Shown here: one piece after another, positions 6,617-46,029 of the stretch | Position numbering within the stretch: the stretch's first letter is position 1 | Layout of the letters: the number at the start of each line of letters is the position of its first letter | Assembly (NCBI GenBank): GCA_033220425.1 | Contig: CM065652.1 | Span: 1-64,000 of the forward strand | DNA: 64,000 nucleotides | DNA from: Lepraria neglecta | Lineage: Eukaryota; Ascomycota; Lecanoromycetes; Lecanorales; Stereocaulaceae | Direction: 5' to 3' | The notes under the pieces: model-generated | Databases searched by the model: none | Seen by the model: the letters and a program-made list of their open reading frames with translations, nothing else | What the model was told of the DNA's origin: nothing | Position numbers and translations under genes: made by a program

Positions 6617-6718
6617 TAAAATTTTAATCTTCTAATACTCTTTATTTAAATAAAATTTCTTCCTCGCTAAATCTTATTTCTACTTCTATTTTTCTACTCT
6701 TTTTAATTCTATATCTAT

Positions 6719-13749: not shown

Positions 13750-14003
13750 TAATATAGAAAGGGCTTAAAGGGGTTCGTAAGAAGAGTATAGACCGGAGAG
13801 TATTAAGAAGAAGAGAATAGATTTGAAAAGAAGCTTATATCGAGGTAACCGCGGGGCGGGTGTATGTTACACAAAAATCCTATAGTACTACCTAACTCCG
13901 GCTTTTCTAATTTTCAGGATAAAAACTAAATAGCTCCTTAATAAATCAAGTAGGATTGAAGTAGATAGCTAGCTAATTCTGCTTTAAACCTTTACCTTGA
14001 TAT
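13750..14003. other. Spacer upstream of the two-exon gene
   Basis: About 250 bp between the likely start codon at 13749 and satellite array 2. It may hold the minus-strand promoter; I see no clear motif. Confidence 0.4.
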
Positions 14004-15438: not shown

Positions 15439-18400
15439 GAGGCGCGACCTCTGAACCCTCTGATTCTACTATATCTACTCGTCTGACGATAACGAATCGT
15501 CCCGTATTCCCTCTTCGGGTTCCGATTCCACCTCTCTAGCGTCCTCCCTACTATCTTCCTCAGCCAGTATATAGTGTATCTCCGCCTTATAAAAGGTGTC
15601 GTCTAAACCGTCCAGGTCCAGGTTATGGAATACGCCGCGAGGATATTTGGCCGTACGGCTGTTAGTGTTGGTTAAGGTTTGTAAGGGGCTATCTCGAAGG
15701 ATGTCCCTGATCGCCTTCTGCGTTAGTTCGTTGTTTACCGCGCGGTCTACCTGATAGACGAACTTATAGTACTCCTCCTCGAGACGGCAGGATAGCCAGT
15801 TGGTTCGCTGGACTATCGGTGTCCCGTTAATTTTCTGTCGTGTCTCTATGGTATTGCCGTCCTTCGCCTTTTAGATGTACGAGAGGTGGTTAGCGTCGTA
15901 TTAGGGGATGATTAGTATCAGTTTAGAGGCGTGGCGCCTGAGATAATATATCCAGTCGGGTTGACGCAGGATATGTTCAAAGGTCTGGTTAAAAATGGTC
16001 CAGAGTTGTTTGACGAGGGTACGGAATTTGTATCACTCCTATTTGCGCCTCCTACCCTCTAACTCCGGCTTATCGAACCCGAAGAGTGCGCGGACCTGAT
16101 CCTCCTATAGTCCTGACCTGTAGTAGGGAGCGAAGACGGCTCCTTTGCCGTTGGAGCCCGGGGCTTTCGCGTGAATGATGTGGGGCCTGGCCCCCGTAAT
16201 CCGGGTCACTAACCCGGGCGTAAGTATACAGAAACCGTTTCGCGAGTCCTCGTCTATTTACGCTAGAAAGTATTCCTTCTACTCCGCCTTTAAGGGCTAC
16301 TCGTCTTAAAGGGGGTAGGGTCCTGTATTGCGGCTTTAAACGGCCGCCTTCCAGTCCTTTTTCGCGATGTAGCAGCGCTTAGCAAGGATGTCGAATACTT
16401 CTAGATTATATTCCTTGACGACGAGTTGCGCGGCGAGATCCAGTATACGTTTTACCTAGCGTTCCACCGGCTCGTACGCCCGCTATACTATTATATACGT
16501 CTTATAATACTTACGCCAACGACGGTAGAAATAATGTTCCTTATTCAGGAGATTAGCGATTTAGGGTCTGCGGAAGGACTTCTAAAAGGCGTTATTGTCT
16601 TGGGAGAGCCTAAGGTTCTTAAGTGCGCGTATTAGGAGAAGTAAGGTAGGGGTAACCATCGGATAAGATCGGCCCGGACCTAGACTATACCGTACGTGTC
16701 TACGGAGCGACGATATCCTAGCCCTAGTCGTACCGTAGGGGTCCCGTCGTCTTCGTAGTTATCGTATTATAGGCGGCTTATTATCCAGTCGTCCCTCCAC
16801 AATAGCCGATACGGGAATATCCGGGGATCGTCGCCTCTAAAGCTAAGTGCCAGGGTACGGACGATAGCCATGACCATTACCCTATATATTTACTCGTCCT
16901 TCTACGTCATCGGCGTAAGGTCCCTAACTCCGCCCTCTAGGCGTATTATAATAACCTCGAGGTATAGGAGCTAGCGGTTAGTAGTCGCGGCGATAAACTA
17001 GAGAACCTCGGTAGTAGGCAGGATCTAATATAGGAAATACGGTATACGTCGACGGTAAGGGCGGGGGTGATTATTAACTCTAGTTAATATCGGGCTTAGG
17101 GCGGATCCGTCGCTGTCGCCGTCGCCGTCGACTATATCGAAATTTATATTTCGAAACCGCGTCAAGTCTATTCGGTATTCCTGTCAGGCCCCGAAGTTAG
17201 CCGCTTTATACTCCGGAGCGACCGGGGGCACGTGCCTAGGCGCGGGAGCGGGCGCTTCGTTGTCGGATCCGTGTGGTAAGCAGGTCTCGTTACCCGACGT
17301 AGGAGGGTTATCGAGTGTGTAATCACTGAGGTCAGGTAGTAGTGATAGTACTACTCCTTGGTTACGGCGCTGGGGCTGTAGCGGATGATAAGTGGTGTCT
17401 TCGGCGGACTTCAGGGCCGCCTGAAGCCGGATTTTGGTCGTGTTATATTGACGGACGAGCTGCTCGTATTTCCGCCGACGTGCGGATGATGACCCTTTAT
17501 GATTGGCCTTGTACTAGCGGTCGAGATTCGACTGGCTGAACCCTAGAGCTTCGAAATGCGGGTTCTGGAAAGGCCCGTATTTCTTCAGGGGCGTATCGAA
17601 TAGATGTTTGATAAGATTGTATACTTTGGGATATACAATCCCGCACTTTCGGTGGAGGTAGTTATTAGCTAGGACCGCGACAGACATGGAGCCGGTATCC
17701 CGGGTCCAGAACTAAGGGTATTTCGCCTCCTTAGTGCTAGTAGTACGTCGGGAGGGGTCGTAAAAGGCTTCGGCCTAATGCTCTAGGTAACTGGGTTTGC
17801 GCAGAAGGGTAATAGCCTGCGAGGTATCACCGACCGGGGTATCTTCTACCCTAAAGTCTAACTAATAGTCTCCGGGTAGGAAGTATTCCTCGTAGAAATC
17901 GAAACAGTCTTCGAGGTAGGTAAGGAAATCTTCGCGAGCCTGGGCAGGAGACGGGCGAGACGTATAGATCTTGAGGTCGTGGCCCTGGATGATCAGAAAG
18001 GGGTTCTTGAATAGAGGGCGATCGTCGGCTTTACGGTATACCTCTCTCTAAAAGGCATCTAGATCTTAGGAGGGGATCGGGTAAGACACGTCTATAGCTT
18101 GGCTAGGTAGCAGATTATGAACTTCCTGCCTCACGTGGGCCTTATAGTTAGTATCTTCGAAGCTACGGGGATAACGAGTATAGACTTGGGTATTATAGGT
18201 CGATCGGAGCGCAGGGAGGATGATATCGTCGATCTAGATTTGCTGCGATTTGCTACTAAGATGGTAGCTATAGTTCTTCTACTGTTTCTTCGCGCGAGTT
18301 ATCCGAGGGAAGAAGATATAATATTCGTAGTTAAAGCCCGCGCTACTAACGCTATACCTGAGGCGGAGGTGTTTAGTCTTGTAGATCCGTCTTGACCGGA

Positions 18401-19062
18401 ACGTGACGTAAGGGTCTTAGGTGATAGTCCTAAGGTAAGGCGGGCGGTAGGCAAGTCTGAAGCCCTTCCGGTGGACCGCCAGTATAGTAACCCTGGCTAT
18501 AAAGCTATCTACGTCGTAACTACGCCTGACCCAAGGGTTAGTCCTCTGCTCGGCCTGTTCGAAGGCCTCTGCGGACCTGGCGATACTGAGAGCCTATTCC
18601 GGGATATCGCCATTACTACGGCCTCCTAGGAGTTCCTGCTAGTCTACCGCTCGGAAATCGTTATACTAACCTCGGCGACGTAGATATATACCGGATTGCA
18701 GAGGAAAAGGGGTCCTAGGGAGATGTTCGTTGAGATAGTCGGTGTATTCGGCTAACGAGCGTGCTCCGTTGCTGCCGATGTAGTCGTTCCCTATAGATAC
18801 GTGATCAGTCAGTTAGTCAGTTAGTTAGTTAATTAAGTATTCAGGATATAGTTAAGGTGGCAGTCTTACTGCACGTGCAGAGAGGTGCCCAGCTGCGGTC
18901 TAGGCAGTCCTGCGCGGTAGCTATAGGATCAGGAGCTTCGTCGGACAGGCTGAGTTCTGAGAGATCATCCTCCAGCGATACCGCGGACTTATTATACCTA
19001 TCTAGATCGGATGGCCCGGAAACGGCCGAGCGAGACTCGAGAGGATTATTATAGTCAGGCGC

Positions 19063-19120
19063 GTAGTTATCGTCGTCGTCGTCGTTGTCGTCGTCGTCGT
19101 CGTTGTTATTATTATCTAAT
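19063..19120. repeat. GTC/GTT trinucleotide run
   Basis: On the minus strand this encodes a run of Asp with some Asn inside copy B. Copy A lacks the expansion at the corresponding place (about 3340-3370). Confidence 0.8.
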
Positions 19121-20936
19121 AGTAAGGTGTGGGTCACTACCGTTGGTCTTGAAAATGTTGAATAGGAGGGGATATTAACTGAAGTTAACGTTAATGTCGA
19201 AAGAGGGATACGGACTGCGGTAACCCTCGATATTAAAGAGGCTGCTAGTAACGAGGCGCTTGTAGAGGAATGCGGTTAGAGTTGGGGGATAGGATATAGG
19301 GTATTCTTATTATTATTGACTCCTGGACCCTGGCTGATATTTGGTGTATAGGATATGTCCTGCTCGATGATCCGATTCAGGCTGTTACTTCTACTAGACA
19401 GATCTATAGACTGAGAGCGGGTATCGGTCCCTGTAGATAGTAGAATGTTATTCGCGGTACTGGAGGTCGAAGGAGCTTTAGGTTAAGAGTGACTAGATCT
19501 AGGAGAGGAAGTAGTAGGCTGTTTACGGGTGACTCGATTGATACGGGGGTGATTATTATCCTCTGCGGTAGGATCAAAGAGGGTAGTAGGCTCGCTAGCG
19601 GTAGGATTCTGCCGAAGAAGGGAGCTATTCGGGGGTAATGGATGGCGAGGCTGACCAGGAGGGGATTCTGGTCCTTGGTTGAAGGGAGCTGGTTCGGCGG
19701 TGATATTGGAGGGGCCGGTACGTCTGGTAGTATTATCCCTGTTGTAGTTGCGTTATATCGCTCGTCTGGTAGCTCGTCATTCCTCTTAGGGCTTTACTTT
19801 ATAGCCTATAGTAAAGGAATCGCGGCTGGTAAGAAAATCTGTCCTGGAAGATAAAAAATCATTAATATACGTCGCGCGGTTAGGGGGGAAGAAGGAAAAA
19901 GCTGGGGTATTATCTAGTACCTATAAAAAAGGCGGGGAAACCGATAGGGTGGGCGATTTGCCTACTCTGGACTATAATAGGCCAATCAGCGCCTAAGAAG
20001 TACGTTGTTACCTCGAGTATAATCCTATTAAGTAATATCTTACCTCTTTCGGCTCAGGGTAAAAGTTAGATAGCTGGGGAAATCGGGCTAAAGGTCGCGT
20101 AACGGCTTATCTAGGGTGGTAGAGTTAGCCTGATACCGGATTCCGATCCCCTCGAACCTAGCCTGTCAGGGATCTTCTCCCTATTAGGAGTCGGGGACCT
20201 ATACGAGATATATACCGTTAAGTAGTAGCTGTTATCCTTCTTCTTCGTCGAGCTCTTAGGAGGGTAGGGATAGGGTAATTAAATGGACTACCGGTTCGCG
20301 GGAGGGGTTCGTGGCGGGTTCTCGTCCCTATGGAGTTCGCTCGGGGGGCCCTAGCTCTCTATCGGAACCGACGGCCGGGGTAATAGAGCCGATACTTGCT
20401 GCGGTATAGTCGGAGGGGAAGAAGAAGAAGGAGGAGAAGGGGGAGGTAGGCGACCGCGGAGTACTTGCTGTAGTTCCTTGATAAGCGCGTCCTGCTATAG
20501 GCGAGTTACTCGTTCCTGCTACCAGGTCCGCTTTTATCGCTGGCGCCACCGATATTACCGGGCGGCGTTCTTTATCCTCTTCTCAGCGGCTGTAGTTAGA
20601 GGTCGACCTATTATAGTAACTGGTGATATCAGCGTAGGTGGTTGACCGACTGTAATAATGGGACTGGAAAAAGCTCGCGAAAGATGCGTAAGTTTCGGGG
20701 GGGGGGGAATTCTGCGAAGTGGTTAATTTCCTAGTATTGTTGGCGAGGTGATGGCGGGTCCCGGGGCGGGAGGGATCAACTGATAGCGCGATCCGGATAC
20801 GCGCAGGTGATTCGATTGTATATGTCGGATAGGATATGCGAATATGTAGAGTCCCCCTGATATAAATAAATAGGTGACGTGTTGACGTTCAACATTAATG
20901 CGCGTGGGGTTGCGAGTTTCAGGCTAATAAGATGCT

Positions 20937-20982
20937 GTTTAAACGATATAGCGCCAAATAGAATGCGCTATGTCGTTTAAAC
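20937..20982. repeat. 18-bp palindrome in copy B
   Basis: Bases 20937-20954 and 20965-20982 pair over 18 bp with one mismatch and a 10-base loop. The inner core (ACGACATAGCGC and its complement) is the same as in copy A, with the single mismatch a C-to-T change. The outer arms differ from copy A, yet match each other within copy B. Confidence 0.85.
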
Positions 20983-21262
20983 GCTGGTCGATTGGCCGGC
21001 AGGATTTAAGCATCGCCGGCCCGCCGCTTAGCCTACCCGAGGATGAATATCAACATTTTCCTGCCATGGAATCATCCATAACGTGGTCGATCCGGCTTGG
21101 TTTTTGCTCAGGATGGCATGGTTGGAATCGGAAGGGAAATACGCATCTTTTTCGTCTACAAAGTGAAGGGATCCGCCCGACTTTTTGGCCGGCCCGAGAT
21201 GGCGAAAATGTCCAAGTCCTCGAGCGGGGCCCGCTGACCCTGCCCCACCGCCCGCTATAATG
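20965..21262. repeat. Shared 300-bp unit flanking copy B
   Basis: Counterpart of 5438-5745. It ends at CCACCGCCCGCTATAAT, directly against the TPR end of the minus-strand NLR remnant, so arrival of this segment probably truncated that gene. Confidence 0.75.
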
Positions 21263-23015
21263 CCAATTCTTGTTAATGGATCCGCTCGGCCTCTTTATAA
21301 TTGCCTTGACTGCTCAACACCCCCGCCAGATTGTTCATGCTGGTCAGCGTATTAGGATGCTCCTTGCCCAGCACCTTTTCCCTTAATGCCAACGCTTGTC
21401 GATGGATCCGCTCGGCCTCTTCGTAATTGCCTTGACTGCTCAACACTAATGCCAGATTGTTCATGCTGGTCAGCGTAGATGGATGCTCCTTGCCCAGTAT
21501 CTTCTCTGTGTTTCTAAAATGAAACGCTCGCATCTTGTACGCCTCAGACCATCGCCCTATCCTGAACAGGAAGCCTTCTATCCTATCGATCATTGTGAGT
21601 CGGACCATTGCAAATTCGTCCAGCCAGTCATGCACGAGAGAAAACGTATTAAAACCAGCCATTACATACGGCACCAACCGGAGTTGATGGCCGGGGTCTA
21701 TCTGATCCTGGGCAGTGGCATCTGCTATAAGCTCGAGGGCGAGACTGCTCAGATACCGTTGCCTGTCTATCTCCAGTCGATCTTGGCCCCATATATACAC
21801 AAGCTTATGCATGGCATAGCTCTCCTGATCTAATTTCCACTAAATCAGCGAATAATTTTGAAGCGTCCCAAATGCTGACTCCAGGTCATACACTGTCCAT
21901 TTCTGTCCGCAGAAGAGGAACGTCCGCCATATCTCATTAGGTAATGTTGTGGCCTCTGACGGTCCCACGACATGAGTAGAAGCGCTCGTAAGGACCCCAG
22001 CGCCGTCCCCGTCGAAGAGACTCAGAAAGATATCCTTAAAGTTCACAAATGCCAATAGGATAAGTAATCGGGCCGCCGCTGGGTTATGCTCTTTAATGGC
22101 CTTGAACCATGTTTCCCATGTGCTCAAAACACTTTCCCCGTAGTGGTGTATATGCTGCTTAGCCCGCTGACGGAGTAGCTCTTTCCGCCGCTGCCGGTAC
22201 TCCGGGAGATATCTCCGCATATCAGATGATAGGCGAGGCGTCACCGATATATATGAACCTGCCAGGGTGATTGCCAGGGCTAAGTATCCCAGCTCTTTGA
22301 CAATTCGAGCCACTTCTGTTATAGTGTCTTGGCTTTTCTCCTTTATCTTCGCGCATCGTTAGAACAGCTCTATCGCTTCTGATAGCTCCATATCCGCCAC
22401 TTCCACCGCATCCAGCGTTGTCATCTCCTTAGCTATTGAGCTTCGCGAGGTGATAACAATATGTACTCCAGGCGCATCAGGCAGGAAATATTCCAGGTTG
22501 ATATAGGATTTATCTTGATCATTGTCAATGGTGTCTGCACTGTCCAGAACTACTAGCTATCGCCCTTTATGACTGTAGAACCAGTGCTTGACTGCAGGCA
22601 CCGCATCTTCGACCTTTACTATCTCTTGGCCCACACTGAGGGGACGGCCATACAGTAGCCGGTAGATCTGGATGTAGTCACGCTGAATCGACTCCTTGGA
22701 TCCAGCTTCGATCCAGAATACCGCAGTATAGTCCTGCCGATAGTCGCGGATGTAGTTCAGCACCAGCTGCGACTTGCCCGCTCTACCGAGCCCCCACACT
22801 ACCAAGATCCGCACGTCTTCCACCCCGTCATCTTTGAGGTCGTGTAACTATTCTGTAATTGCCTTGATTGCTTAACACCTCCGCCAGCTTGTTTATACTG
22901 GTGAGTATAGATGGATGCTCCTTGCCCAGCATTCATGCTCCTCAACGTAGATGGATGCTCCTAGCACCCTTTCCATCAATGCCAACGCCTGTCGATGGAT
23001 CGACTCGGCCTCTAT
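21263..23015 (-). pseudogene. NB-ARC-TPR NLR remnant, truncated at both ends
   Basis: Reading down from 22823 one frame gives a P-loop (WGLGRAGKSQL; Gly to Arg at a normally Gly position), a Walker B-like LVVLDSAD near 22545, an ITSRSS motif near 22440 and GYLALAITLAGSYI (GxP-like region) near 22290. After a helical region come two and a bit TPR units of kinesin-light-chain type (EKILGKEHPSTLTSMNNLA; LSSQGNYEEAERIH). In-frame stops lie at 22557-22559, about 22359-22361 and 21840-21842; otherwise the frame is kept. The TPR array is cut at 21262 by the shared 300-bp unit. A displaced TPR-like fragment in the same orientation lies upstream at about 22850-23015, so the gene was rearranged. No N-terminal effector domain is visible. 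Confidence 0.75.
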
Positions 23016-23737
23016 GGTAACAGCTTATCCGTAGGGTGCCAATGAAGGAGTAAGAGGCGGATAATCTTGGAGCGGATGGAAGGAGGAAGAGGTCTAGGCA
23101 AAATGGTCTATTCATATAGTAAGCGACGTGTAAAGGATTTGTATGGCTTCGCAATTACCTGATTAGGAAAGGCAAGCTGCAATTGCAAAAGGCGACTTCT
23201 TATTGCTTGTTCTGATTTGTATGTAAATTTGGTAGGAAGAAAAACAGCGCGATGATAAATTGAAAAATTTTTCTGGCGCCAAGAGATTCCCAACTTTTTT
23301 GCACACGCTAAAAGAGGGGTTACTCCGAGTAGAGTCTAGTAATAAAGCTGAATAAAGCCCATTAGGCAGCAATGCAGCCTGGCAACCTTCTGTGATTTAA
23401 AATCTATCAGCGCCGCAACTTTGGTCTCAACGCTCGTAGTTTACAATCCATTCGCGAGAAGATTCTTTAGTGGTTTTGCGCTGCCCTTTATTGATTGTTA
23501 CGGCCCTGGCCTGACCTTCCATGGTCTTCCACCACTAGCCCTCTTGGGCCTAGCTCAGGGGCTGCCGTAGCCGCCCACCTACATAAATCCTCGTCGCGCC
23601 CATATGGCCTTCCTTCCTTAGATTCCATATCATCGTCTATTCTACCCCTATGACTTGACTCTAGGCCGGCCCTTGACATTGATGTAGACTTTGAAGACGT
23701 CGGGTACTATAATCCCTTCTCGATCCCTTAAGCCTCT
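23016..23737. other. Spacer between divergent NLR remnants
   Basis: About 720 bp with only short, unconvincing frames. It may have held divergent promoters for the minus-strand NB-ARC-TPR remnant and the plus-strand HeLo-NACHT gene. Confidence 0.4.
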
Positions 23738-26700
23738 GTGAAGATAGAAATAGTGGGTCTAGCATTTGGCGCTGCTAGTTTGGTGGGGTTGTATAGCGCT
23801 TGTATGGAAGCAGTTGACCGCATTGCATCCTACAGGGATTTTGGGAGGGACAAGAACCAGCTATTAACGCGATTAGGTGCCAACAAAGATATATTTCAGA
23901 AATGGGCTAAACGGGTTGGAATATCAGCGGAGGGACTGCTAGTTCCTCACGACACCCGTCTGGACGACTCAAATACGGCAAGAGTGGTCAGCCAGATTTT
24001 GACTTGCATACAAGAGCGTTTAGGAGATTCAGGCCAAGCAAAGTATAGACCATACTAGAATCAAAATCAAAATACCCTATCCGCGTCAAAGCGACTTTGT
24101 GAACCAAGCGTCCAAAGCGAACCGCAAGCCCTATTACGAAGAAGAGATAAATTGGCTTGGACCTTTCACGGTAAAAAGAATTTAGAATCTCAAGTCGTCG
24201 AGTTTGCTCGGTTAGTTAAGATACTGGATCGGCTTGTGCCTCCGTACGGAAGCTCTGACGGCAAAGACCTAAATCATTAACTCGACCTGATAAACCTTAA
24301 AGGTAGCCTGCCCTGGGAAGTGTCGGTATTTGAAGGATATAAAAATCTAACGGAGTTTTCCCATTTGCTCGTTGATTATAATATCCTCCAACGTCAGAAA
24401 GGCAAGTCTCAGCTATCGCTATCGCATTCGGCTATTAACACTCTTTAGATCAGGATCGAAAGGATGTTTTAGCATGGCTTAACCCGGTCCCGCCTAATGA
24501 CCGCTACGAAGCGTGTCGGCTGCACCGTACCCCGACCACCTGCTCATGGATCTTTTAAAAGCAGACCTACCAAGAATAGAGGTCACCTCTGTTTCCTGGA
24601 GATATAGCAAAGCTTCTCTGGCTTCACGGTCCAGCTGGTTTTGGAAAGTCTTATCTCTGCGCGGCTATTGTCGAGTCGCTGAAATATGAGGAGAGTCTGC
24701 GTATTCACCACTATTTCTGCGCATCGACATCGGTGAACTAAGACAATTCTTCAACTATCTTGAGGGCATGGATAGCGCACTTAATATCCGAAGATGATGA
24801 ATTATTAGACCTGGCATATGAAGAAATACACGGATTTTCTTTCCAGCCAAGCTATTTTTCTCTGTGGAAGCTATTTAGACGGCTGGTTTTGAATACGTCG
24901 AACTGTATATTTGTGGTGGACGGTTTGGATGAATGCGAAATATCCTCCAGTACCCCTAAAGAACAACCTAACCAGGATCGCCATACCTTTCTAGTATATC
25001 TTCAGCAATACGTCGAGAGTACTAAGTGTCGTGTACTAATTGTGAGCCGGGACGAGCCCGACATCCGTTCTCAGCTGAGTTCTTTTGGTCTACGCATAGC
25101 CAAATGTACTTTCTATGAGTATGAGATTCTTAAAACTGACGTCGATGCGGACGTTCTCGCCTTCTCTCAGAGTCTGGTCAAGGAAAATCTACGTAACAAA
25201 AGCGATGCTGACCAAAACAAGATTACTAAGCTAATGGCCGGAAAATGCGAAGGCATGTTTTTGTAGGTAGCGTTACAGGGTCGTCAGCTAAATGGAGGTA
25301 AGAGTATAAGAAAGCTACAAGAAGTTGTGAAGGCCATGCCGAAGGAGCTGGAGTCTGTATATAGAAAAGGCTGGGAAAGTATACTGAATCGGCCAGGCAA
25401 TGAGAAATCCCGCGCCTTGAATATACTTCGTTGGGCAGTGTTTGCGGCTAGACCATTGACCGTCTCTGAGATCACCGAGGCTCTTATTATTCCGGACTAC
25501 GAAGAAGATAAGGATCTACTACTGGACGAAATACCTGATTGCTATAATCGCGAATATGTATCCGATAGAATTGTTGATCTTTGCGCGTCATTAGTAGAAA
25601 TACGGGCGATACCCCGCGAGGAGGAGCTTGAGTCTCGGACTATCCATTTGAGGCACTTCTCTGTCAGAGAGTTTCTAGTAACAACAGATACTTGCGAAGC
25701 ATTATCGGATTTGCCTTATGTCTCATCATTCGATCGGGTGTTGCAAAACAATTACCTTGCCGCAATTTATCTACGGTACCTTCAATGCGAACCAAACACC
25801 GAGGCCGGCACAGTTTTGCTTCAGGAAAAGGCATTCTACGATTATGCAGCCCAGTTTTGGTATCAACACATTTCACCAGCAGGAAGTACATACTCGACAT
25901 TGATCAAATTCGTCAATGAGTTTTTGGAGCCTAAAAATACCTTCTAGGAACCATGGCGTCTTCATTTTGAGTATCTTTGGCAGCAGCAGCATTCTTCGGA
26001 AATACAGGCTGCTAATTACACCGCAAATCACCTTTACTACGCAGCGTGGTTTGGCTTAAAGGATACCGTAGACCACTTGCATCAGAAGTACACCGAGATG
26101 CTCAACGCGTTAGGAGGGACGTACGGAACGCCACTCCAAGCTGCTTGTTATACTGGTCATTTGACCCTCGTAATGCACTTGTTACGCATTGGCGCGGAGG
26201 TAAACATATCGGCAGGGCACTTTGGAAGTGCCTTGGGAGCGGCAGCTCGCAATGGTGACCTTAAGATCTGCAGACACCTGTTAGATAATAATGCTTGTGT
26301 TGATTTGACTGACCAGGGCAATCGCACTTCAGTCTACTTGGGTTCAATGGGTGGACATCTGGAGGTAGTTAAACTGCTGCTTGATCGAGGCGCCAATCTT
26401 TCAACTGCTGCTGATGACGGATGGACCCCTCTATATTCGGCATGTGATGAAGGACATCTGGAGGTAGCCAAAATGCTGCTCGATCGAGGCGCCAATCTTT
26501 CAACTGCTACTGATGACGGATGGACCCCTCTATATTCGGCATGTGATGAAGGACATCTGGAGGTAGCCAAAATGCTGCTCGATCGAGGCGCCAATCTTTC
26601 AACTGCCAGCAATAATGGATGGACCCCTCTGAACTCAGCATGTAAGAGTGGACATCTAGAGATAATCAAACTGCTGCTTGATCGAGGCGCCAATCTTTCA

Positions 26701-29700
26701 ACTGCTACTAATAATGGATGGACTCCTTTGAACTCAGCATGTGGGAGTGGATATCTAGAGGTAGTTAAACTGCTGCTTGATCGAGGCGCCAATCTTTCAA
26801 CTGCTACTGATGACAGATGGACCCCTTTACATTCAGCATGTAGTAGTGGATATCTGGAGGTAGTCAAACTACTACTCGATCGAGGCGCTAATCTTTCAAC
26901 TACTGCTGATGACGGATGGACCCCTCTATATTCGGTATGTGATGAAGGACATCTGGAGGTAGCCAAAATGCTGCTCGATCGAGGCGCCAATCTTTCAACT
27001 GCTACTGATTACGGATGGACCCCTCTATATTCGGCATGTGATGAAGGACATCTGGAGGTAGTCAAACTACTACTCGATCGAGGCGCCAATCTTTTAACTG
27101 CTGCTGATGACGGATGGACCCCTCTATATTCGGCATGTGATGAAGGACATCTGGAGGTAGCCAAAATGCTGCTCGATCGAGGCGCCAATCTTTCAACTGC
27201 TACTGATGACGGATGGACCCCTCTATATTCGGCATGTGACGAAGGACATCTGGAGGTAGCCAAAATGCTGCTCGATCGAGGCGCCAATCTTTCAACTGCC
27301 AGTAATAATGGATGGACCCCTCTGAACTCAGCATGTGATAAGGGACATCTGGAGGTAGTTAAACTGCTACTGGATCAAGGCGCTAATCTTTCAACTGCCA
27401 GCAATAATGGATGGACCCCTCTGAACTCAGCATGTGAGAGTGGACATCTAGAGATAATCAAACTGCTGCTCGATCGAGGCGCCAATCTTTTAACTGCTAC
27501 TGATTACGGATGGACCCCTCTATATTCGGCATGTGATGAAGGACATCTGGAGGTAGCCAAAATGCTGCTCGATCGAGGTGCCAATCTTTCAACTGCCAGC
27601 AATAATGGATGGACCCCTCTGAACTCAGTATGTAAGAGTGGACATCTAGAGATAATCAAACTGCTGCTTGATCGAGGCGCCAATCTTTCAACTGCCAGTA
27701 ATAATGGATGGACCCCTCTATATTCGGCATGTCATGGAGGATATCTGGAGGTAGTTAAACTGCTACTGGATCAAGGCGCCAATCTTTTAACTGCTACTAA
27801 TAATGGATGGAGTCCTTTGAACTCAGCATGTGGGAGTGGATATCTAGAGGTAGTTAAACTGCTGCTTGATCGAGGCGCCAATCTTTCAACTGCCAATAAT
27901 GATGGATATACCCCTCTATATTCGGCATGTGACAATGGACATCTGGAGGTAGCCAAAATGCTGCTTGATCGAGGCGCCAATCTTTCAACTGCTACTGATG
28001 ACGGATGGACCCCTTTACATTCAGCATGTAGTAGTGGATATCTGGAGGTAGTCAAACTACTACTCGATCGAGGTGCCAATCTTTTAACTGCCAACAATAA
28101 TGGATATACCCCTCTGAACTTAGCATGTGATAAGGGACATCTAGAGGTAGTCAAACTGCTACTGGATCAAGGCGCTAATCTTTCAACTGCCAGCAATAAT
28201 GGATGGACCCCTCTATATTCGGCATGTCATGGAGGACATTTGGAGGTAGTCAAACTGCTACTGGATTAAGGCACCAATCTTTCAACTGCCAGCAATAATG
28301 GATGGACCCCTCTGAACTCAGCATGTCATGGAGGATATCTGGAGGTAGTCAAACTACTACTCGATCGAGGTGCCAATCTTTCAACTGCCAACAATGATGG
28401 ATACACCCCTCTGAACTCAGCATGTGATAAGGGACATCTGGAGGTAGTCAAACTGCTACTGGATCAAGGCGCCAATCTTTCAACTGCCAGCAATAATGGA
28501 TGGACCCCTCTGAACTCAGTATGTGAGAGTGGATATCTAGAGATAATCAAACTGCTGGTTGATCGAGGCGCCAATCTTTTAACTGCTACTGATGACGGAT
28601 GGACCCCTCTATATTCGGTATGTAATGAAGGACATCTGGAGGTAGCCAAAATGCTGCTCGATCGAGGCGCCAATCTTTCAACTGCCAGCAATGATGGATG
28701 GACCCCTCTATATTCGGCATGTCATAGAGGACATCTGGAGGTAGTCAAACTGCTACTGGATTAAGGCGCTAATCTTTCAACTGCCAGCAATAATGGATGG
28801 ACCCCTCTGAACTCAGCATGTGATAAGGGACATCTGGAGGTAGTCAAACTGCTACTGGATTAAGGTGCCAATCTTTTAACTGCCAGCAATAATGGATGGA
28901 CCCCTCTATATTCGGCATGTCATGGAGGACATCTGGAGGTAGTCAAACTGCTACTGGATTAAGGCGCTAATCTTTCAACTGCCAGCAATAATTGGACCCC
29001 TCTGAACTCAGCATGTGATAAGGGACATCTAGAGATAATCAAACTGCTGCTCGATCAAGGCGCCAATCTTTCAACTGCCAGTAATAATGGATGGACCCCT
29101 CTATATTCGGCATGTCATGGAGGACATCTGGAGGTAGTCAAACTGCTACTGGATCAAGGCGCCAATCTTTCAACTGCCAGCAATAATTGGACCCCTCTGA
29201 ACTCAGTATGTGATAAGGGATATCTAGAGATAATCAAACTGCTGCTTGATCGAGGCGCCAATCTTTCAACTGCTACTAATGATGGATGGACTCCTTTGAA
29301 CTCAGCATGTCATGGAGGATATCTGGAGGTAGTCAAACTACTACTCGATCGAGGTGCCAATCTTTCAACTGCCAGCAATAATTGGACCCCTCTGAACTCA
29401 GCATGTGATAAGGGACATCTAGAGATAATCAAACTGCTGCTTGATCGAGGCGCCAATCTTTCAACTGCTACTAATGATGGATGGACTCCTTTGAACTCAG
29501 CATGTCATGGAGGATATCTGGAGGTAGTCAAACTACTACTCGATCGAGGTGCCAATCTTTCAACTGCCAACAATGATGGATACACCCCTCTGAACTCAGC
29601 ATGTGATAAGGGACATCTGGAGGTAGTCAAACTGCTACTGGATCAAGGCGCCAATCTTTCAACTGCCAACAATGATGGATACACCCCTCTGAACTCAGCA

Positions 29701-31074
29701 TGTGATAAGGGACATCTGGAGGTAGTCAAACTGCTACTGGATTAAGGCGCCAATCTTTCAACTGCTACTAATAATGGATGGACTCCTTTGAACTCAGCAT
29801 GTGGGAGTGGACATCTAGAGGTAGTTAAACTGCTGCTTGATCGAGGCGCCAATCTTTTAACTGCTACTGATAACGGATGGACCCCTTTACATTCAGCATG
29901 TAGTAGTGGATATCTGGAGGTAGTCAAACTACTACTCGATCGAGGCGCCAATCTTTTAACTGCTAGCAATTATGGATCGACCCCTCTATATTCGGCATGT
30001 CATAGAGGATATCTGGAGGTAGTCAAACTGCTACTGGATCAAGGCGCTAATCTTTCAACTGCCAGCAATAATGGATGGACCCCTCTGAACTCAGCATGTG
30101 ATAAGGGACATCTGGAGGTAGTCAAACTGCTACTGGATCAAGGCGCTAATCTTTCAACTGCCAGCAATAATGGATGGACCCCTCTGAACTCAGTATGTGA
30201 GAGTGGACATCTAGAGATAATCAAACTGCTGCTCGATCGAGGCGCCAATCTTTCAACTGCTACTGATTACGGATGGACCCCTCTATATTCGGCATGTGAT
30301 GAAGGACATCTGGAGGTAGCCAAAATGCTGCTCGATCGAGGTGCCAATCTTTCAACTGCCAACAATGATGGATGGACCCCTTTACACTCGGCATGTGACA
30401 AGGGACATCTCGAAATCATCCGAGTCTTGCTTAGTAACTCGATAGATCTGGGAGTTACTATAATGATGGGGGAAACTTGTTTACACCTAGCATGTCGACG
30501 TGATTTACCGGAAACGATCGATCTGCTTATGGCTTATGGATGCGATCCACTGATGGTAGACAACTATGGCCGTTCGTGTGTTGATTGGGCCTCTATGTAT
30601 CAGCCCTGTATATCGGCTATCAATTGCACACCTTTCCATGTTATGAGCACGCTGATAGCTACTTATCAGAATGTGTTAAGAAGGACTATACGCAGATTAA
30701 TTGAAGCGCTTTTAGAAAGACTAGAGTTAAGTTTCTATCGGCTAGGCCACTGCCTCGTGATTGCTGGGGATGAAAACAATGCGTGCAGAGCATTTGAGCA
30801 GGCTATAACGATTACCGGTAACGAGACTAAGCATGCAGCATTTTGTGACCGCTGTGACACAAAGGAATCTATCCGCGGCATGGATCGTTTCGTATGCAGA
30901 TCATGTACCGATGTCGACCTCTGTCAGCAATGTTTTGAGCTCTTCCGTGGAGACGAGAAGCCTTGGCGATGTAAAAGCCACGAATTTCTGAAAATTCCTA
31001 GCCCTGGATTTGTGCCTGTTTCTGAAGTGGAGACACGTACCTGGCTGTATGAGCTTCAGGTCCAATATTCATGA
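23738..31074 (+). pseudogene. HeLo-NACHT-ankyrin-ZZ NLR, recently broken
   Basis: The N-terminal 110 residues (VGLAFGAASLVGLYSACMEA, then YRDFGRDKNQLLTRLGANK) match the HeLo pore-forming/prion-inhibition domain. The natural start codon is probably the ATA at 23744, one transition from ATG. A NACHT module follows: P-loop LHGPAGFGKSYLCAAIVESL near 24615 and Walker B CIFVVDGLDEC near 24910. About 41 near-identical 33-residue ankyrin units follow (26353-30410), then a C-terminal ZZ-type zinc finger (CDRC, CRSC, DLCQQC, KSHEF; 30840-30990). I count about 13 in-frame stops (24056, 24278, 24446, 24556, 24577, 24739, 25264, 25945 and five in the ankyrin array) and one frameshift near 24445; from 24556 to 31074 one frame is kept. 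In related NLRs repeat binding drives NACHT oligomerisation and membrane attack by HeLo. The frame conservation suggests a recent death. Confidence 0.85.
26353..30410 (+). repeat. Ankyrin repeat array: 41 tandem units of 99 bp
   Basis: The distance between the first and last GGACATCT word (26353 to 30403) equals 41 x 99 bp minus 9; the 9 bp are three units shortened by one codon (near 28990, 29185 and 29381). Unit consensus: GHLEVVKLLLDRGANLST followed by a variable triplet, then GWTPLYSAC. Variation concentrates at few codons (the two residues before Gly-His/Tyr, the VV/II/VA pair, Arg/Gln before GAN, the loop before GW, and Tyr/Asn/His after TPL); the rest is almost invariant at DNA level. 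This is the signature of concerted evolution known for fungal NLR repeats such as HET-D/E WD40 arrays. Confidence 0.95.
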
Positions 31075-31314
31075 TAAGGCCGGAAACAGGTAAGGTCAGC
31101 CTTGTGGGCTGTGAGGCTGAAAAGGCGATCTTCACACTGCAGCAGCATCCAGCCATAACGATAACACAAGTCTTCCTTTACCGTTAAGACTTCATCAGAG
31201 CGAATTTCCAGAGTATCTCGAGAACTTGTCATCGACTACCTAAAGCAAAGACTTCAGAAAGTGATCAGGCAGTAAACGATCCCTACCCGCATATACGATA
31301 CGCCTTGAAAAGAG
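31075..31314. other. Short spacer between two NLR genes
   Basis: 240 bp after the ZZ finger stop and before the PNP-domain start; nothing recognisable beyond space for a terminator and promoter. Confidence 0.4.
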
Positions 31315-34192
31315 ATGAAGCATGGAGACTACACTGTGGGGTGGATATGCGCGTTGCCGACGGAGCTGGCTGCAGTGGTGGCCATGCTGGACGAGCGCCA
31401 CAACCCTCTCCTGCAGGATTCTCACGACCACAACAATTACACGTTGGGGCGGATCGGGGTGCACAACGTGGCTATTGCGTGTTTGCCGTCTGGAGTAACG
31501 GAGATTACTTCTGCTGCGATCGTGGCGAGTCATATCCGTTCTACATTTTCCTCGATCAGGTTTGGACTGGTGGTTGGGGTCGGCGGTGGAGCTCCAAGCG
31601 CCAAGAATGACATTCGACTGGGCGATGTGGTGATCAGTAAACCGGATGGGACGTCTGGAGAGGTGATCCAGTACGATTTTGGAAAAACGGTTCAAGAAGG
31701 TCGATTCGTGCGGGCAGGGTCGTTGAATCGACCACCGACTGTATTGCTCAGTGCGGTGAATACCTTGCAGGCTAAACATCTGATGGAAGAGCCGGAGCTT
31801 ACCAGACACCTGTCAGAGATATTGATGAGATATACGAGGATGCAAGTAACCGGTGCGTATCCGGGTCTACACCACGACCAGCTATTCCAGGCAGAGTATA
31901 TGCATCAAGAAGATGACGATGCGTGTACCGATTGCAACCAAGTTCACACGGTGTCTCGGTCAATCCGGAGCGACAGTGTTCCTGGGGTGCATTACGGCTT
32001 GATCGCTTCAGGAAACCAAGTGATAAGGGATGGAATAACTCGAGAGAAATCACGATAAGAGCTTAACGTGTTATGCTTTAAGATGGAGGCGGCAGGTCTG
32101 ATGGATAACTTTCCATGTTTGGTGATCCGAGGGATATATAATTATGCCGATACGCATAAAAACAAGCGTTGGCAGCCTTATGCGGCGGCGTATACGAAGG
32201 AGCTCCTCTGTGTTATACCAGCTAACCAGGTAGTCCGCACCCGCCCCATCGGGGAGACGAGTGCACTAGAATGTGAGTAGATTCTCACAAGATTTACGGC
32301 TTGATATATACAGGAGAAGGAGGAGATGACAGATCAGAGTACTAGAATTATTCCTGTTAAGATAGGAGGAAGAATTGAAGATTAGACTTTTCTGAATAAT
32401 TAAGAGACAATATGGGACCGTAGACTCAGTATAGCGCTAATTCGCCTGAACAGCTCAACACCCTCCAATCAAAGCTGTGTTTACGGTGCCATTTCGAAAA
32501 GATAACAAGTTTGTGGATCGAAAACTTATCTTCTCGCAAGTCGAGGAGCATCTTCGTCTGTATCATTGTGCATCGCTGAATAGGATGGGAGGCGTTGGTA
32601 CTGTCACTCCTACGGATGGTTCCGTATCCATGCTGACCAAGGTTATTAGAAAATCTCAGATCGCTATCGAATACGCTTACCGATTTCGATAGTCTCACCC
32701 ACAGAGTCACGTCTTCTGGATATATATAGCCAATTCAACGCAGTTTGTGCAGGCATACCAAGATATAGCACGAAAGCTCAGACTCCCTGGTTGCGAGGAC
32801 TCGGATGTCAATCTATATGAACTTGTCTCCAAATGACTTGATGAAGATGATAGCAGCGGATGGCTCATGATCTTGGATAACGTGGATAACGCTGGTCTCT
32901 TCTTCCGTTCCACTGATGTGGATATATTATCTGCTGATACGGACCCAACGCAGAGACTTCTCGCTGATTACATTCCGAAGAGATTCGATTCTAAAAGGTT
33001 ATTGATTATTACTACAAGGAGCAGAGATATAGGAGAGAATCTAATCGATGGAGAGTCGTGTATCGACGTACCGCCATTCTCAATTCAAGAAGCCGAATCG
33101 CTATTGCAACTTAATGCTAAGGATGCTCTTAACCGTTGCAAGCCGGATATTATAAGAACGCTGCTAGATGTCCTGGGATGTATTCCACTAGCTATCACCC
33201 AGGCTGCGGCTTTTATCAAACGCAATCGAATGTCCGTCCAAGGCTATCTAGCCGCCCTTGAAAAGGATAATCAGAATATGACGGATTATCTGAGCCAGGA
33301 GCTTCAAGATGCTCGAAGGCCGCGGGGTTTTCCCAACTCTGTCTTCCGAATATGGAAATTATCCTTTGACTAGATCTTGGCGCGGGAACCTTAGACGGCA
33401 AAGCTACTATCTTTGATAGCGATGCTTGATCCATAGCGGATTCCAGAGAATCTGTTGCGACCGCTGGCCGAAAGAGATGTAGATTTCAGAATGGCACTCG
33501 GTACGCTTGATAGGTTCGCCTTAATTACTCAAGAGAGTAGAAGAGAGACATATACAATACACCTACTCGTGTAAGTATCCGTATACTACTGGCTCGAGCA
33601 AAGGAAGGAGAAAGCAAATTATATAAGCCGAGCTTTGCAGCTATTAGCGAAGGAGTTCCCGAATGGTAAGCATAAGTATAAAGAGAGGTGTGAATCATTG
33701 CTGGCGTATGCTCAAGCGGTGTTATACTATAATTGTGTATCAGAAGATGATCTCAGACACCGCGGAGCCCTTCTTTATAACGTTAGATGGTTTAACTGGC
33801 GGCAAGGTAGATATATCTCTGCGTATCAAGAAGTCTCCGAAGCATACAAAATCAATCAAGAACAATTAGGGAAGATGCGACTACTATATTAGATAGTCTG
33901 TCTTTGCTTGTATTGGTATTTCGGCATCAGGGGAAGTATAAGGCGGCCGAGGAGATGAACCGACAAGCGCTGGCAGGATATAAAAAGGTGCTGGGAGTGG
34001 AGCATCCCGACACATTGAACAGCGTTTACTGCCTTGCCTACCTATTTCACACTTAAAAACGATACGATGATGCGTCTATTCTCTATCTTAGAGCTTCAGC
34101 AGGCTTTTCGAAGGCGTTAGGTCCAGACCATCCTACAACACAGAACTGCTCCCGGCATTATTCGTCCATGATTCAGAAAATGGAAAGCTAGG
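31315..34192 (+). pseudogene. PNP-NB-ARC-TPR NLR, broken paralogue
   Basis: The first exon (31315 to about 32275) encodes a purine/uridine phosphorylase-like domain: YTVGWICALPTELAAV, the glycine loop VGVGGGAPSAKNDIRLGD and [26 protein letters not shown] domain follows: VPFRKDNKFVDR near 32490, RMGGVG and, after a degraded intron, KSQIAIEYAYRF; SGWLMILDNVDN; IITTRSR; GCIPLAITQAAAFIKRN. The C-terminus keeps little more than one TPR unit (KYKAAEEMNRQALAG near 33940) before the terminal LGPDHPTT segment, against ten in the intact paralogue at 56017-60029. In-frame stops interrupt it (for example 32056-32058, just after FR near 32690, 33371-33373 and several beyond), and the P-loop intron has lost a splice-site G. 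Same orientation and domain order as the intact copy. Confidence 0.85.
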
Positions 34193-34857
34193 GCAGAGAC
34201 GTGGGATAGTCAGAAGAACATCTCTATACCTGTGCTCTAGCAGTTCTGTAGTTATTAGGATATAGTAATTATGGCATGAAGATTCTGAACTAGCTCGGAG
34301 ATCATGTGCAAAATGGAAGCGATAACGTTGCCCCATGCCTTATCAAAGTAGTCTCTATAGTCCATCCAAGCAATATTCTTGATAAATCCAGTGGACCATG
34401 CTTCAACAGAACCAGTTATAGGTAAACCACACATTTGCCTCACCTCCACTCAACCTAGTGACATTTCTGCTTGATACAGGTGGAGTCGCTGTCCAATTCA
34501 CAGAAAGCCCTCGTATTTTGGGATCTTGATCTGTGCTATCAAACGGAATGATTTTTGGGATCGGCTGATGAGCAATTTCGGCTACCGTCTCCAGCAGCAG
34601 CGGGAGCTCCCGGGACTGCCGTGCTCCTACCGTCGATTGCAAAACCATTGGCGGGAACGCTAAGGCACTTTTGGGGTACCCCACCACACACCAAATTTTG
34701 GTGGCAGAAGAGGTATATAGAAAGTGTTGCGTTGTCTCTGCAGTAGTGCTCATGTAGTCTTCCTAAAACGGCAAAGATGAAGCCGCCAGTGCCCCATATA
34801 TGGTGTTTTGCCTCCCCCCCGCGCTCGTAGACTGTAGACCTCACTGTCGCTGTCGCT
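34193..34857. other. Spacer with one weak minus-strand frame
   Basis: An ATG-started minus-strand frame at 34753-34403 (116 codons; MSTTAETTQHFLYTSS) meets a possible donor GGTGAGGC near its end, but I recognise no family and no second exon is convincing. Otherwise this is the upstream region of the gene at 34858. Confidence 0.25.
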
Positions 34858-37266: not shown

Positions 37267-38920
37267 ATCTATATATAGCCTAGATTGCAAGCTTTCCCTC
37301 TTATTATATATATGATTAGTGTTCTCACTCCTGAAGCTATACACACCGGCACAAGTGGATATGTAAATAGATGCTTGGGCGGTCTAACGCCAGGGCTAGC
37401 AGGCCTAGAAAGGCTACAACAGGTGCCCCAGCGCTAGAAAACTCCCATGCCTAGGCGGCATAGACCTGGAGTGTAGATAGGCTATATATAGGCTATGTAT
37501 AAGGTGCGGGTGGGCGGGAAAGAACTGCTATGGCTCTGAAAGAGATGAACTCGACTGAAGAGCCAACTGCTGGTGGGATGCTCATACAAATAGTGCTCTC
37601 AGGAAGCACGAATCTCTCGCTATGGCCCATGGTCATGGCGCATGGCTGAAACCGCATCTGATCATGAGACACACTAACCCACAGTCCCGCTGTAGCGAAT
37701 TATGGAGGTCTTGGCATGGTTTCCTATGTCTATATATACAGAGCACCGCTCACCGCTTGGAGCGTTGTGCTTAACTCATCTGTTGTACTTGATTACATGT
37801 GATAGATCTCTTAGGCTAGGCACTGAGCATATATTATCTGATTATATACCAGACCTGCTTAGCAACACTGGAAGCCTGCTTCCCTCTCTCACATCTTGTT
37901 GCACCCTCATCCCCATTGAGAATAATCCATATACGATACCGGTACGCACGGTTCGTAACACCTAGCCCCGCAAGTTGTCTTAATTTGGCTTTGGATGCCT
38001 ATATACACCTTTCGAAGATCGATAACATGAGTAATTAATGAAGCTTGGCTTGCACCGTCCTATCACAGCCGAGGCGTGGTGTCATGTACATTTCCGTCTG
38101 GATCACATTAAGTCCGCATAGAATTTGGCTGGCGCACCTTACCCGAGGAAGCGTTGGGATTGCCGATCTTTCTGTTTGACACGAACATGTCAGATGGTGT
38201 TACCGACCTTCAATGCCTCCTTGAGCTTGCGCAAAAACGTGCCAGGCGACGAGGCACGTATAATTTATTTCCGGTTCTCTAATTGTTGGATGCTTTTGGG
38301 CAACAGACTACGACCGCAAAAATCTCCAACAATATTGGACAGCAGCTCAATTGCCATGAAACACCGTATATGCATTGAGTACATACAGGAGCATGTTCAT
38401 TTCGCCGTGCTTGGAAGACGTTAGGTCAACCAGCGCGACATTGATGAGCACGTCTTTCCGATAACCTCACAAACAGGGAAACAAAACAAAGATGAGATTC
38501 TTGTGAGCGCGGAACTTTGGCCTTGGTAGGTTAAGCACTCGAGGCTCTGATGGGCGGAAACAATACAAAGTAACACGGAACAGCTTGACAAACAACAACG
38601 TTCTTGGACCTTTCTTGGCGAGCTATCATCGTCTCCATTCTTTAGACCTCATTAGGGAGGTATTCAGACCTCCGAAATTTTAGAAGGGATTTCTGGATTT
38701 GAGAAAATTTGAGCAGCTTCCCATGAAAATTTGGTGGCGACTCGCTCAAATTTCCTCAAATCCAAAATCTAATTCTTCAACTTTCCCGAACCCTCGACCT
38801 CCGCCCAAAAGAATCTTCCATCGCCCAACGAAATCACGAGGGTAGAGCCACTGACCCTAGTACAGGAGTAACTTGGTGCTAACAACAATATCAAAGGACC
38901 TTACCTAAAAGGAGCCGTTA
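37267..38920. other. Gene-poor spacer
   Basis: 1.65 kb with short frames only (37702-37965 and 38125-38424), none with recognisable motifs. It contains one hairpin (38695-38763). Confidence 0.4.
38695..38763. repeat. Imperfect 20-bp inverted repeat
   Basis: GGATTTGAGAAAATTTGAGC at 38695-38714 pairs with GCTCAAATTTCCTCAAATCC at 38744-38763, with a 29-base loop and one mismatched pair. It could be a decayed foldback element end, an RNA hairpin or chance in AT-rich sequence. Confidence 0.7.
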
Positions 38921-41100
38921 TTGTGATGCCATTTGGGAAAGATGACGATTTTGTCGTGCGAGAAGAAGTGATCAATAATATCGATGAGTGCTTTTCGCGC
39001 AATACGTCCTCGCACCGAGTTGCTCTAGTAGGATTAGGTAGGTTGTAGTTGTTTTGGCTTGGTTTCAACCTGACAAGGAGCAGGAAATCTCAGATTGCGA
39101 TTGAGTACGCATATCGACTGAGAGCCAGGGCACCGACGAACTCAATCTTTTGGGTACAAGCCAACAATGCCGCTCGACTCGAATAAAGCTTTCGGGAGAT
39201 TGCCATTGCGGCGAAACTACCAGGGCTAGATGATGCTAAAATCGACATCCTGGGCTTTGTATCACGATGTCTTGGTTCAAGCGATAGAGGTGACTGGCTC
39301 ATGATCGTTGACAATGCTGATAATTCAAGCGTCTTCTTTGGGACAAGTCCAGCTCCACTGAATGAGATTGAGAAGCCAGAGTCATCTACCTCAGTCTGAG
39401 CGATGCATGTTACTGGTCACGTCACGAGATAGCAACATTGCGTTTCTGCTCGTGGGGAAGGAGGAGAGCATTCTTTCGATAGGCGCAATGGGGTTGCAAG
39501 ATACGAACGCGTTACTGACAAAGAAGTTGCCCAACGATGATTCGAAGTTAGAGGATGGGACTGCATTGATCGAGACTCTTGAATACATTCCATCGGCGAT
39601 CACTCAGGCCTCTGCTTACATTGTCGTCAAGTCTCCGCGCATGACAATTACCAAATACTTGCAGATTTTCCGCGACAACGAAGCCAATCAGGTGTCCCTA
39701 TTAAACAAAGACGGTGGAGATTGAGGAGAGACCCTAACGTCCCTAACTCTGTCATCACAACATGGCAGATTTCCTTCGACTAAGTCAAAGTATAGAACGA
39801 ACTGGTAGCTGAGATTTGTCTACAATGTCCATGCTCGATCGACAAGGTATTCCAGCATTGTTTGTTGGGAGAGAGCGGCAGCAAATCCCTCATGTTTGAA
39901 GATGCTGTGGGAACATTACTGGAATTCTCATTCATCAAGGAAGAGAACGTAGGGGCCGTGTTCGCGATGCATCGACTCGTACAACTTGCCACCAGAAAAT
40001 GGCTCGAGCTATATCAAACGACTGAGAATTGTAAAGAAAAGGCAGTCGGCGTACTCTCGGATCATTATCCCGATGGAAATTACGAAAACTGGAGTAGATA
40101 TGAGCTTCTTGAGCCCTATGCACAGATCATCTTCGGTTACAAATACTCTTCTCAACATTGTCGACTTCAGCAAGCTCTAGCCTTCTACAATGGTATACTT
40201 CGGTATAAGGTAGATATGAAGTAGCGAATAACAGGATTGACGCGGCAGTCAAAATCAGAAAGGAATACCTGGATATAGATAGTCTGGACATAATGAACAA
40301 GCCTTGATCAACTAGTGACAATATATTGTCATCAGGGATTGTAGAGCAAGGCCGAGGAGCTGGGGAGACAAGTCTTAGAGATGTCGGAGAAGGTCATGGG
40401 GCTTGAAGATTCAGCGACACTTAGTTTCATGGCCAATTTGGCGGCAACCTATTTATTACAAGGACTGTAGAAGGAGGCAGAAGAGATGCAGGTACAAAAC
40501 TTAGCAACCAGTAAGGAGTTACTGGGTGCGGACTATCCTAATGTGCTAATCAGGATAAGCAATTTGGCAATCAACTACTGGAGCCAGAATAGGTTTGAAG
40601 AGGCAGAACAATTGGCTCTTCAGATTGTGGACATAAGCAAGGCGGTACTCGGAGTCGAGCATCCTAGAACACTTTACAGAGTGAGGATTCTGGCGTTGAC
40701 CTTTCAATCTTTGGGTAAGTTGAAAGAAGCCGAAGAAATGCAGCTGGAAGTTCAAGAAATACAAGGAAAGATTCTCGGAGCACGGCACCCTGAAACTCTC
40801 ACGACCATGGCCAATATGGCCTTTGCCCATAGGAAACTAGAACTGTGGTACGTGGCAGAAGTGCTGAGCTTAGAGGTTTTAGAGACGAGCAGAGAAATTT
40901 TGGGCGTAAATCATCCTAACATCTTGAGTAGCATGCACAATCTGGCCCATGTTTACAAAGGTCGGGGCCGTAAAGCTGACGCCATCCAACTGATCAGGAC
41001 TGTCATCGATCTCCGGACTCAAACAATCGGGGCCACTCACTCACACATGCTGAATTCTATCAATTCTCTGAACGTGTGGTTGGAGAGTGAGGAGGAGTGA
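38921..41100 (+). pseudogene. NB-ARC-TPR NLR, broken
   Basis: It opens with VMPFGKDDDFVVREE and VALVGLG at 38922-39035, a degraded intron of about 50 bp within the P-loop, then KSQIAIEYAYRL (39092) and SIFWVQANNAARLE. Walker B-like GDWLMIVDNADN is near 39295, LLVTSRDSN near 39412 and EYIPSAITQASAYIV near 39590. TPR units of kinesin-light-chain type follow, spaced about 42 residues (LGVEHPRTLYRVRILALTFQ; LGARHPETLTTMANMAFA; LGVNHPNILSSMHNLAHVY), to a stop at 41098-41100. The TPRs are divergent from one another, unlike those of the 56017-60029 gene. Stops and shifts interrupt it about seven times (for example near 39184, 39722, 39781 and 40222). No N-terminal effector domain is visible upstream; it may have been lost. 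Confidence 0.75.
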
Positions 41101-45960: not shown

Positions 45961-46029
45961 CGTCCGCCATCTGTCCATCTGTTAGCATAGGCAGTAGTTA
46001 GCAGAATGGTAGGAATATGCGATGCTTGA

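Follow-up and report, generated by a model that had tools for sequence, protein, structure and literature searches.

A duplicated HeLo-NACHT-ankyrin-ZZ receptor gene in Lepraria neglecta, both copies of which were very probably inactivated by repeat-induced point mutation

Repeat-induced point mutation (RIP) of duplicated NOD-like receptor (NLR) genes has been described in Podospora (PMC1805685). In P. anserina, NWDp1 and NWDp2 are RIP-inactivated NLR pseudogenes with a CA/TA ratio of 0.03-0.1 in the NACHT region and 3.2-3.3 in the WD array, and the authors ascribe the escape of the WD array to exchange with active genes (PMC1805685). A study of Sordariales NLR genes expects RIP to conflict with NLR duplication (PMC12258605), and among the ANK proteins named in a survey that covered 198 fungal genomes, the one with the most conserved repeats has 21 (PMC4986451). 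Here, a gene of the ascomycete Lepraria neglecta that spans positions 23744-31074 of the + strand was compared with these systems. It encodes a HeLo domain, a NACHT domain, a winged-helix-like region, 41 ankyrin units and a ZZ finger, and has a second copy on another contig. The window, that is, the whole stretch analysed, comprised bases 1-64000 of contig CM065652.1 (here C7) of assembly GCA_033220425.1; the contig with the second copy (C9) is 101,624 b long, and the searches covered this one genome of 42.0 Mb in 11 contigs.

The analysis indicated that the receptor gene was very probably duplicated in a block of ~17.5 kb, after which RIP inactivated both copies; the domains, both copies, the stops, the RIP signature and the mosaic arrays were seen directly. 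Among the frames over 21-34 kb, the HeLo, NACHT and ankyrin frames on the + strand were broken by TAA and TAG codons. The C7 gene has ATA instead of ATG at the start position and 12 in-frame stops, all TAA or TAG: seven before the array (4 TAG, 3 TAA) and five within it, each a TAA at codon 12 of a unit, with the stretch 3' of the array open. In C9, the start position reads ATG and the gene carries 25 stops, 15 before the array, nine in the array (5 TAA, 4 TAG) and one TAG 3' of it. All 37 stop occurrences in both genes (three aligned stops being counted in both) were TAA or TAG, and none was TGA. At codon 12 of the unit, TAA was present in 10/29 CAA/TAA codons of both arrays, and 63 units had CGA and none had TGA; four stops in the C9 array were located at codon 24. 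A full-length product should not be expected from the C7 copy.

The two copies were aligned outside the arrays (17126-23745, 23746-26352, 30403-31073 and 31074-34629), which gave 749 mismatches in 13,414 columns; 736 were transitions, of which CpA/TpG sites accounted for at least 594, and 13 were transversions (~0.1%). In the 5' part of the gene, where the 2,607-column alignment had no gap, C9 carried T at 55/151 sites that are CpA in C7, A at 45/157 TpG sites and T at 15/415 C residues not before A. The corresponding changes in C7 amounted to 11/107 CpA sites, 6/118 TpG sites and 0/398 C residues not before A. The C-to-T and G-to-A changes prefer CpA, and the C9 copy is above the ~80% identity and ~1 kb given for RIP duplicates (PMC1805685). 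Judged by these alignments, the mutation spectrum is a RIP signature and RIP struck both copies. The positions of the block and of the parts of the gene in the window are as follows.

17126-34629, + strand: block repeated on C9 (C9:14142-32624), ~90% identical by blastn in two overlapping pieces (90.6% and 89.6%)
23744-23746, + strand: start codon position, ATA in C7 and ATG in the C9 copy
23756-24247, + strand: HeLo domain (PF14479, profile search) with one in-frame TAG
24402-24448, + strand: predicted 47-b GC-AG intron at the HeLo/NACHT junction; the frame continues across it in both copies
24613-25086, + strand: NACHT NTPase domain (PF05729; PF24883 on the open part) with one in-frame TAA
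25402-25683, + strand: winged-helix-like region (PF22939 at 24 bits, below the cut-off of 27)
26353-30402, + strand: 41 ankyrin units (38 of 99 b, 3 of 96 b), with TAA in units 20, 25, 26, 27 and 35
30403-30501, + strand: diverged ankyrin unit 3' of the array
30829-30942, + strand: ZZ-type zinc finger (PF00569 at 25 bits, cut-off 21.4)
31072-31074, + strand: terminal stop codon, TGA

The HeLo-NACHT-ankyrin-ZZ architecture and its coordinates, as proposed in an initial annotation made from the DNA sequence, were confirmed by Pfam profile matches and by Tandem Repeats Finder. The HeLo profile scored 65.3 bits on the open part (23732-24055) and 77.2 bits over 23756-24247 in a whole-genome profile search that read through stops, one of which lies within the match; the best-matching solved chain was the small s (HET-s) protein 2wvn_A (E 7e-4). 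NACHT was matched by PF05729 at 35.5 bits over 24613-25086 (cut-off 26.7, one stop read through) and, on the open part, by NPHP3_N PF24883 at 36.7 bits. The apparent frame change between HeLo and NACHT is explained by the predicted intron; a frameshift near 24450 was rejected as an explanation, since the predicted intron preserves the frame in both copies. For the ZZ region the best-matching solved chains were the ZZ domains of plant BIG (E 1.4e-4) and HERC2 (E 7e-4). With a NACHT domain, an N-terminal effector domain (HeLo PF14479) and C-terminal repeats (the 41 ANK units), the gene is, by its predicted domains, assigned to the fungal NLR class of signal transduction ATPases with numerous domains (STAND), a known receptor class of which it is a very long and dead example. 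Among 28 HeLo PF14479 and 55 NACHT matches genome-wide, a HeLo within 3 kb of a NACHT was found in the C7/C9 pair only, a count that concerns PF14479 and not other HeLo-like families.

Tandem Repeats Finder reported the array at 26353-30410 with a period of 99, 41.1 copies and a score of 4754, and 41 units were obtained when it was cut in frame, in agreement with the number annotated. The array matched Ank_2 at 819.6 bits and many solved ankyrin proteins, among them 4gpm (OR264). The C9 array comprises 51 units, one of which is 96 b long and the other 50 are 99 b. Mean identity between C7 units was 84.4% in DNA and 78.3% in protein, and 40/41 units were distinct in DNA. Protein identity above 85% over at least 100 aa, the level that defines NLR repeats with high internal conservation, was not reached, the values being 78.3% in C7 and 75.8% in C9 with RIP changes included, as means between units and not by the survey's own measure.

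When the winged-helix region was used as a query, one close copy was found, which is the one on C9 and is 93% identical in protein; of the 30 matches, the one following it had 28% identity, and 28 had 22-36%. The ~17.5 kb block holds the NLR gene and parts of two neighbouring genes. Within the block the gene is flanked by a broken frame with TPR repeats at 21273-22847, and by a second broken frame at 31309-34056, which by eye resembles a phosphorylase-NTPase-TPR gene but in which two scanned stretches gave no Pfam match. The more RIP-mutated copy switches along the block, being C7 at 17-21 kb and C9 at 22-34.6 kb; the left part of the block also matches inverted C9 stretches, which may explain this switch. 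The start of the contig (1-20000) has a strong RIP-type dinucleotide skew (CA/TA 0.23, TG/TA 0.34).

The effect of RIP on the arrays was measured at six CpA-type codon positions (12, 14, 17, 29, 30 and 32), chosen by eye as independent of unit type and with codon 2 excluded. At these positions 73/214 sites were changed in C9 and 27/169 in C7, and at four TpG-type positions 17/182 and 1/143, respectively. Pooled CpA and TpG changes were 90/396 (C9) and 28/312 (C7) in the arrays and 100/308 and 17/225 in the 5' parts; the two measures are not identical, since in the flanks a site changed in both copies goes uncounted. In the part 3' of the array, 14/34 CpA sites were changed in C9 and 0/20 in C7. 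From these counts, the array is seen not to have escaped RIP, though by the CA/TA and TG/TA ratios given below it was hit somewhat more mildly than the 5' parts. When ten units were used as a DNA query, 12 matches were obtained, all in the C7 and C9 arrays, so that a third array with the same units was not found by this search, which skips very common words; because all DNA matches to the units lie in these two arrays, no active donor was found in the genome. Codon 31 (TGT) was never TAT in either array (0/92), even though the C9 array carries changes at other TpG sites; this may reflect chance, strand bias or old selection.

Several observations weigh against inactivation of both copies by RIP after the duplication. 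In the 5' part, CA/TA and TG/TA stood at 0.85 and 0.88 for C7 and at 0.42 and 0.50 for C9; the arrays were less skewed, with 1.09 and 1.51 (C7) and 0.56 and 0.99 (C9), and the stretch 38001-48000 of the window, used as a control, gave 1.79 and 1.86. The array damage was lopsided, with far less change at TpG than at CpA sites, and this bias was stronger than in the flanks. Furthermore, because three 5' stops are common to the C7 and C9 copies, some of the damage may predate the duplication. Finally, the intron is a prediction and a single genome was covered.

To compare the C7 and C9 arrays, RIP-type differences between units were ignored. An exact C9 counterpart was found for 20/41 C7 units and one within a single change for 29/41; in the reverse direction the figures were 33/51 and 41/51. 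When one breakpoint within a unit was allowed, 40/41 and 51/51 units were explained within one change, 32 and 38 of them exactly, as against 16/200 and 20/200 pseudo-units drawn codon by codon. Unit order allowing one change gave a longest common order of 18 units (shuffles reached at most 15, 0/300) and 14/40 neighbour pairs kept (shuffles at most 8). With exact matches, 6/40 neighbour pairs were kept (shuffles at most 3), and the order itself was no better than in shuffles (10 versus a mean of 8.5, reached by 52/300). The longest collinear block comprised five units, and C9 units 25-40 had a mostly four-unit period. Each array is a mosaic built from pieces that the two have in common, in an order that is largely different but partly kept. 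The repeat shuffling suggested in the initial annotation was thus borne out, against flanks with ~0.1% transversions. Since the 13,414 flank columns hold 13 transversions and the arrays were re-ordered, unit exchange outpaced non-RIP point mutation, either since the duplication or because the copies derive from different alleles.

In the alternative that fares best, RIP regularly supplies such arrays with recognition diversity and the C7/C9 pair is an extreme case; we regard this as unlikely. RIP was discussed as a source of diversity for WD repeats by Paoletti et al. in 2007 (PMC1805685). Here, the variants between units were partly of RIP type (H/Y, S/L, A/V and Q/stop), and such changes do give amino-acid variants, as at surface codon 32, where H is replaced by Y (TAT) in 11/16 such codons of C9, but in 0/9 of C7. 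RIP-type changes made up 42% (C7) and 45% (C9) of the pairwise unit differences; however, these shares are upper bounds, because some CTG/CTA variants follow unit type, and the same process made the stops at codon 12 (10/29) and codon 24 (four in C9). It might be speculated that the arrays were heavily re-ordered while the flanks gained ~0.1% transversions, that units went on being exchanged once RIP had begun to strike, damaged ones included, and that RIP changes then join the pool of units and feed recognition diversity in active relatives; we hold this to be a doubtful proposition. If true, the pair would be a natural test of a recognition array under RIP. Copying of RIP-marked units was not detected within C9, where 2/57 same-type pairs were identical including their RIP states versus 1.13 expected (59/500 permutations), or within C7, with 1/11 pairs versus 0.18 expected (83/500 permutations). 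The spread of RIP differences was larger than in most permutations (reached by 45/500 and 18/500), a hint at best.

The initial annotation had itself favoured a working, rapidly evolving recognition gene with an array that is shuffled and selected, under which the stops would be errors or be bypassed. For the C7 copy this was largely refuted: there is no ATG at the start position, the 12 stops are of one chemical type, and the gene carries the RIP signature within a RIP-mutated duplicate block, so that it is not an intact allorecognition (het) gene. The mosaic of common pieces is in its favour, and so is part of the evidence on selection. Seven candidate codons (20, 21, 22, 24, 28, 32 and 33 of the 33-codon unit) were picked after the variation had been seen, and the proportion of nonsynonymous differences at these codons (pN) was divided by that of synonymous differences over the unit (pS), with 60 bootstraps over units. 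With all changes, this ratio was 1.04 in C7 (0.95-1.15) and 1.07 in C9 (1.01-1.14). Synonymous sites were rich in transitions, many of RIP type. With transversions only, the ratio was 4.1 in C7 (3.1-5.5) and 4.5 in C9 (3.6-5.3), and transversion pN was 15-fold (C7) and 32-fold (C9) higher at the candidate codons than at the other 26; over all codons, transversion pN/pS was 1.24 (C7) and 1.23 (C9). Within the candidate codons alone, pN was below pS in every mode (pN/pS 0.37 to 0.66), at fewer than three synonymous sites per pair.

The candidate codons lie in the hairpin and inner helix of the ankyrin unit. A six-codon set, the positions randomised in designed ankyrin proteins, was fixed beforehand, and its value was reached by random sets in 614/20,000 draws (C7) and 322/20,000 (C9). 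Variable, selected sites were located in the hairpin and inner helix by Dyrka et al. (PMC4986451). Selection at surface codons, as originally claimed, therefore fails on all changes, since the ratio of 1.04 is the equality with synonymous variation that the initial annotation had named as refuting it, and is supported by the 4.1-fold excess in transversions. The transversions concentrate at surface-type codons, whereas variation as a whole was not confined to a few of them: in C7 the amino acid varied at 20/33 codons, 9/33 codons were invariant, and synonymous variation between units was high. In a RIP-competent fungus, much of the variation in a near-identical array can be of RIP type, and claims of selection on such arrays consequently need a RIP-blind test, for example on transversions only. 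Taking these points together, a working gene is very improbable. Gradual decay of an unneeded gene by ordinary mutation, without RIP, would suit a broken gene near a contig end, but has a negligible probability and is refuted by the spectrum, which has 98% transitions, an approximately tenfold CpA preference (C9 5' part) and no TGA stop, and by the lack of any indel in the 2,607-column 5' alignment, as ordinary decay would bring indels and transversions.

Under the preferred reading, duplication followed by RIP, and by analogy with the known class, the intact ancestor would have used the concave face of the ankyrin array to sense a ligand. Ligand sensing would have led to oligomerisation of NACHT and to a HeLo-mediated, membrane-damaging cell-death response. 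Before the duplication, or in different alleles, unequal exchange between units may have diversified the array, together with selection at surface codons. The ~17.5 kb block would then have been duplicated, and RIP would have inactivated both gene copies.

The ZZ finger, described initially as an unusual end cap, was not unique in this position. The region 3' of the array had, besides C9, one clear relative (37% identity, C7:2869565-2870035), in which the ankyrin repeats precede the same TPR-like helix (below the Pfam cut-off) as in the C7/C9 gene, and then ZZ; two further matches had E values of 1.5e-4 and 3.1e-4. ANK and ZZ matches also adjoin at two more places, on the contigs C3 (1058024-1058658) and C2 (5182737-5183356), and the C7 gene is one of seven ZZ matches in the genome listing. 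The literature matches listed on ankyrin and NACHT contained no mention of ZZ.

Elsewhere in the window, the stretch 6001-8000 has a G+C content of 17-24% and a GC skew near -0.9 (few G on the + strand), and degenerate CCCTAA-like repeats adjoin it at 5.8-6.2 kb. A 172-b tandem repeat forms two arrays, at 8257-8892 and 13988-15258, and is also matched on C9. An open PNP_UDP_1 frame (56014-57003) is followed by an open 949-aa frame (57180-60029) that contains about ten TPR units of 126 b, nearly identical to one another; the two may form a single intact gene of NLR type (56014-60029) in which the TPR array is conserved.

In comparison with the described systems, the C7 gene resembles HET-s/HET-S in its N-terminal HeLo domain, which is related in sequence (2wvn_A, E 7e-4; PF14479), but here HeLo is part of a NACHT-ANK receptor gene. 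The pair is like the fungal NACHT-ANK NLR genes with highly conserved repeats (PMC4986451) in that NACHT is followed by near-identical ANK units with variable hairpin and inner-helix sites and a unit number that differs between copies; the concentration of transversions and the mosaic arrays are likewise as expected of this group (PMC4986451). It differs from those described in the 2014 survey by its 41 and 51 units versus 21, so that the C7 array is about twice the longest conserved ANK array named there, and by its HeLo effector, its ZZ end and the fact that it is dead (PMC4986451). As with NWDp1 and NWDp2 (PMC1805685), duplicated NACHT-repeat genes have both copies inactivated by RIP, with skewed CA/TA ratios and many stops; in contrast to these, the C7 and C9 genes have ankyrin and not WD40 repeats, with HeLo and ZZ in addition. 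The pair bears on the question of Paoletti et al. (2007; PMC1805685), whether RIP spares the repeat arrays of the NLR genes that it kills: in this genome, where no other array of these units was found, the array was not spared, in contrast to those of NWDp1 and NWDp2.

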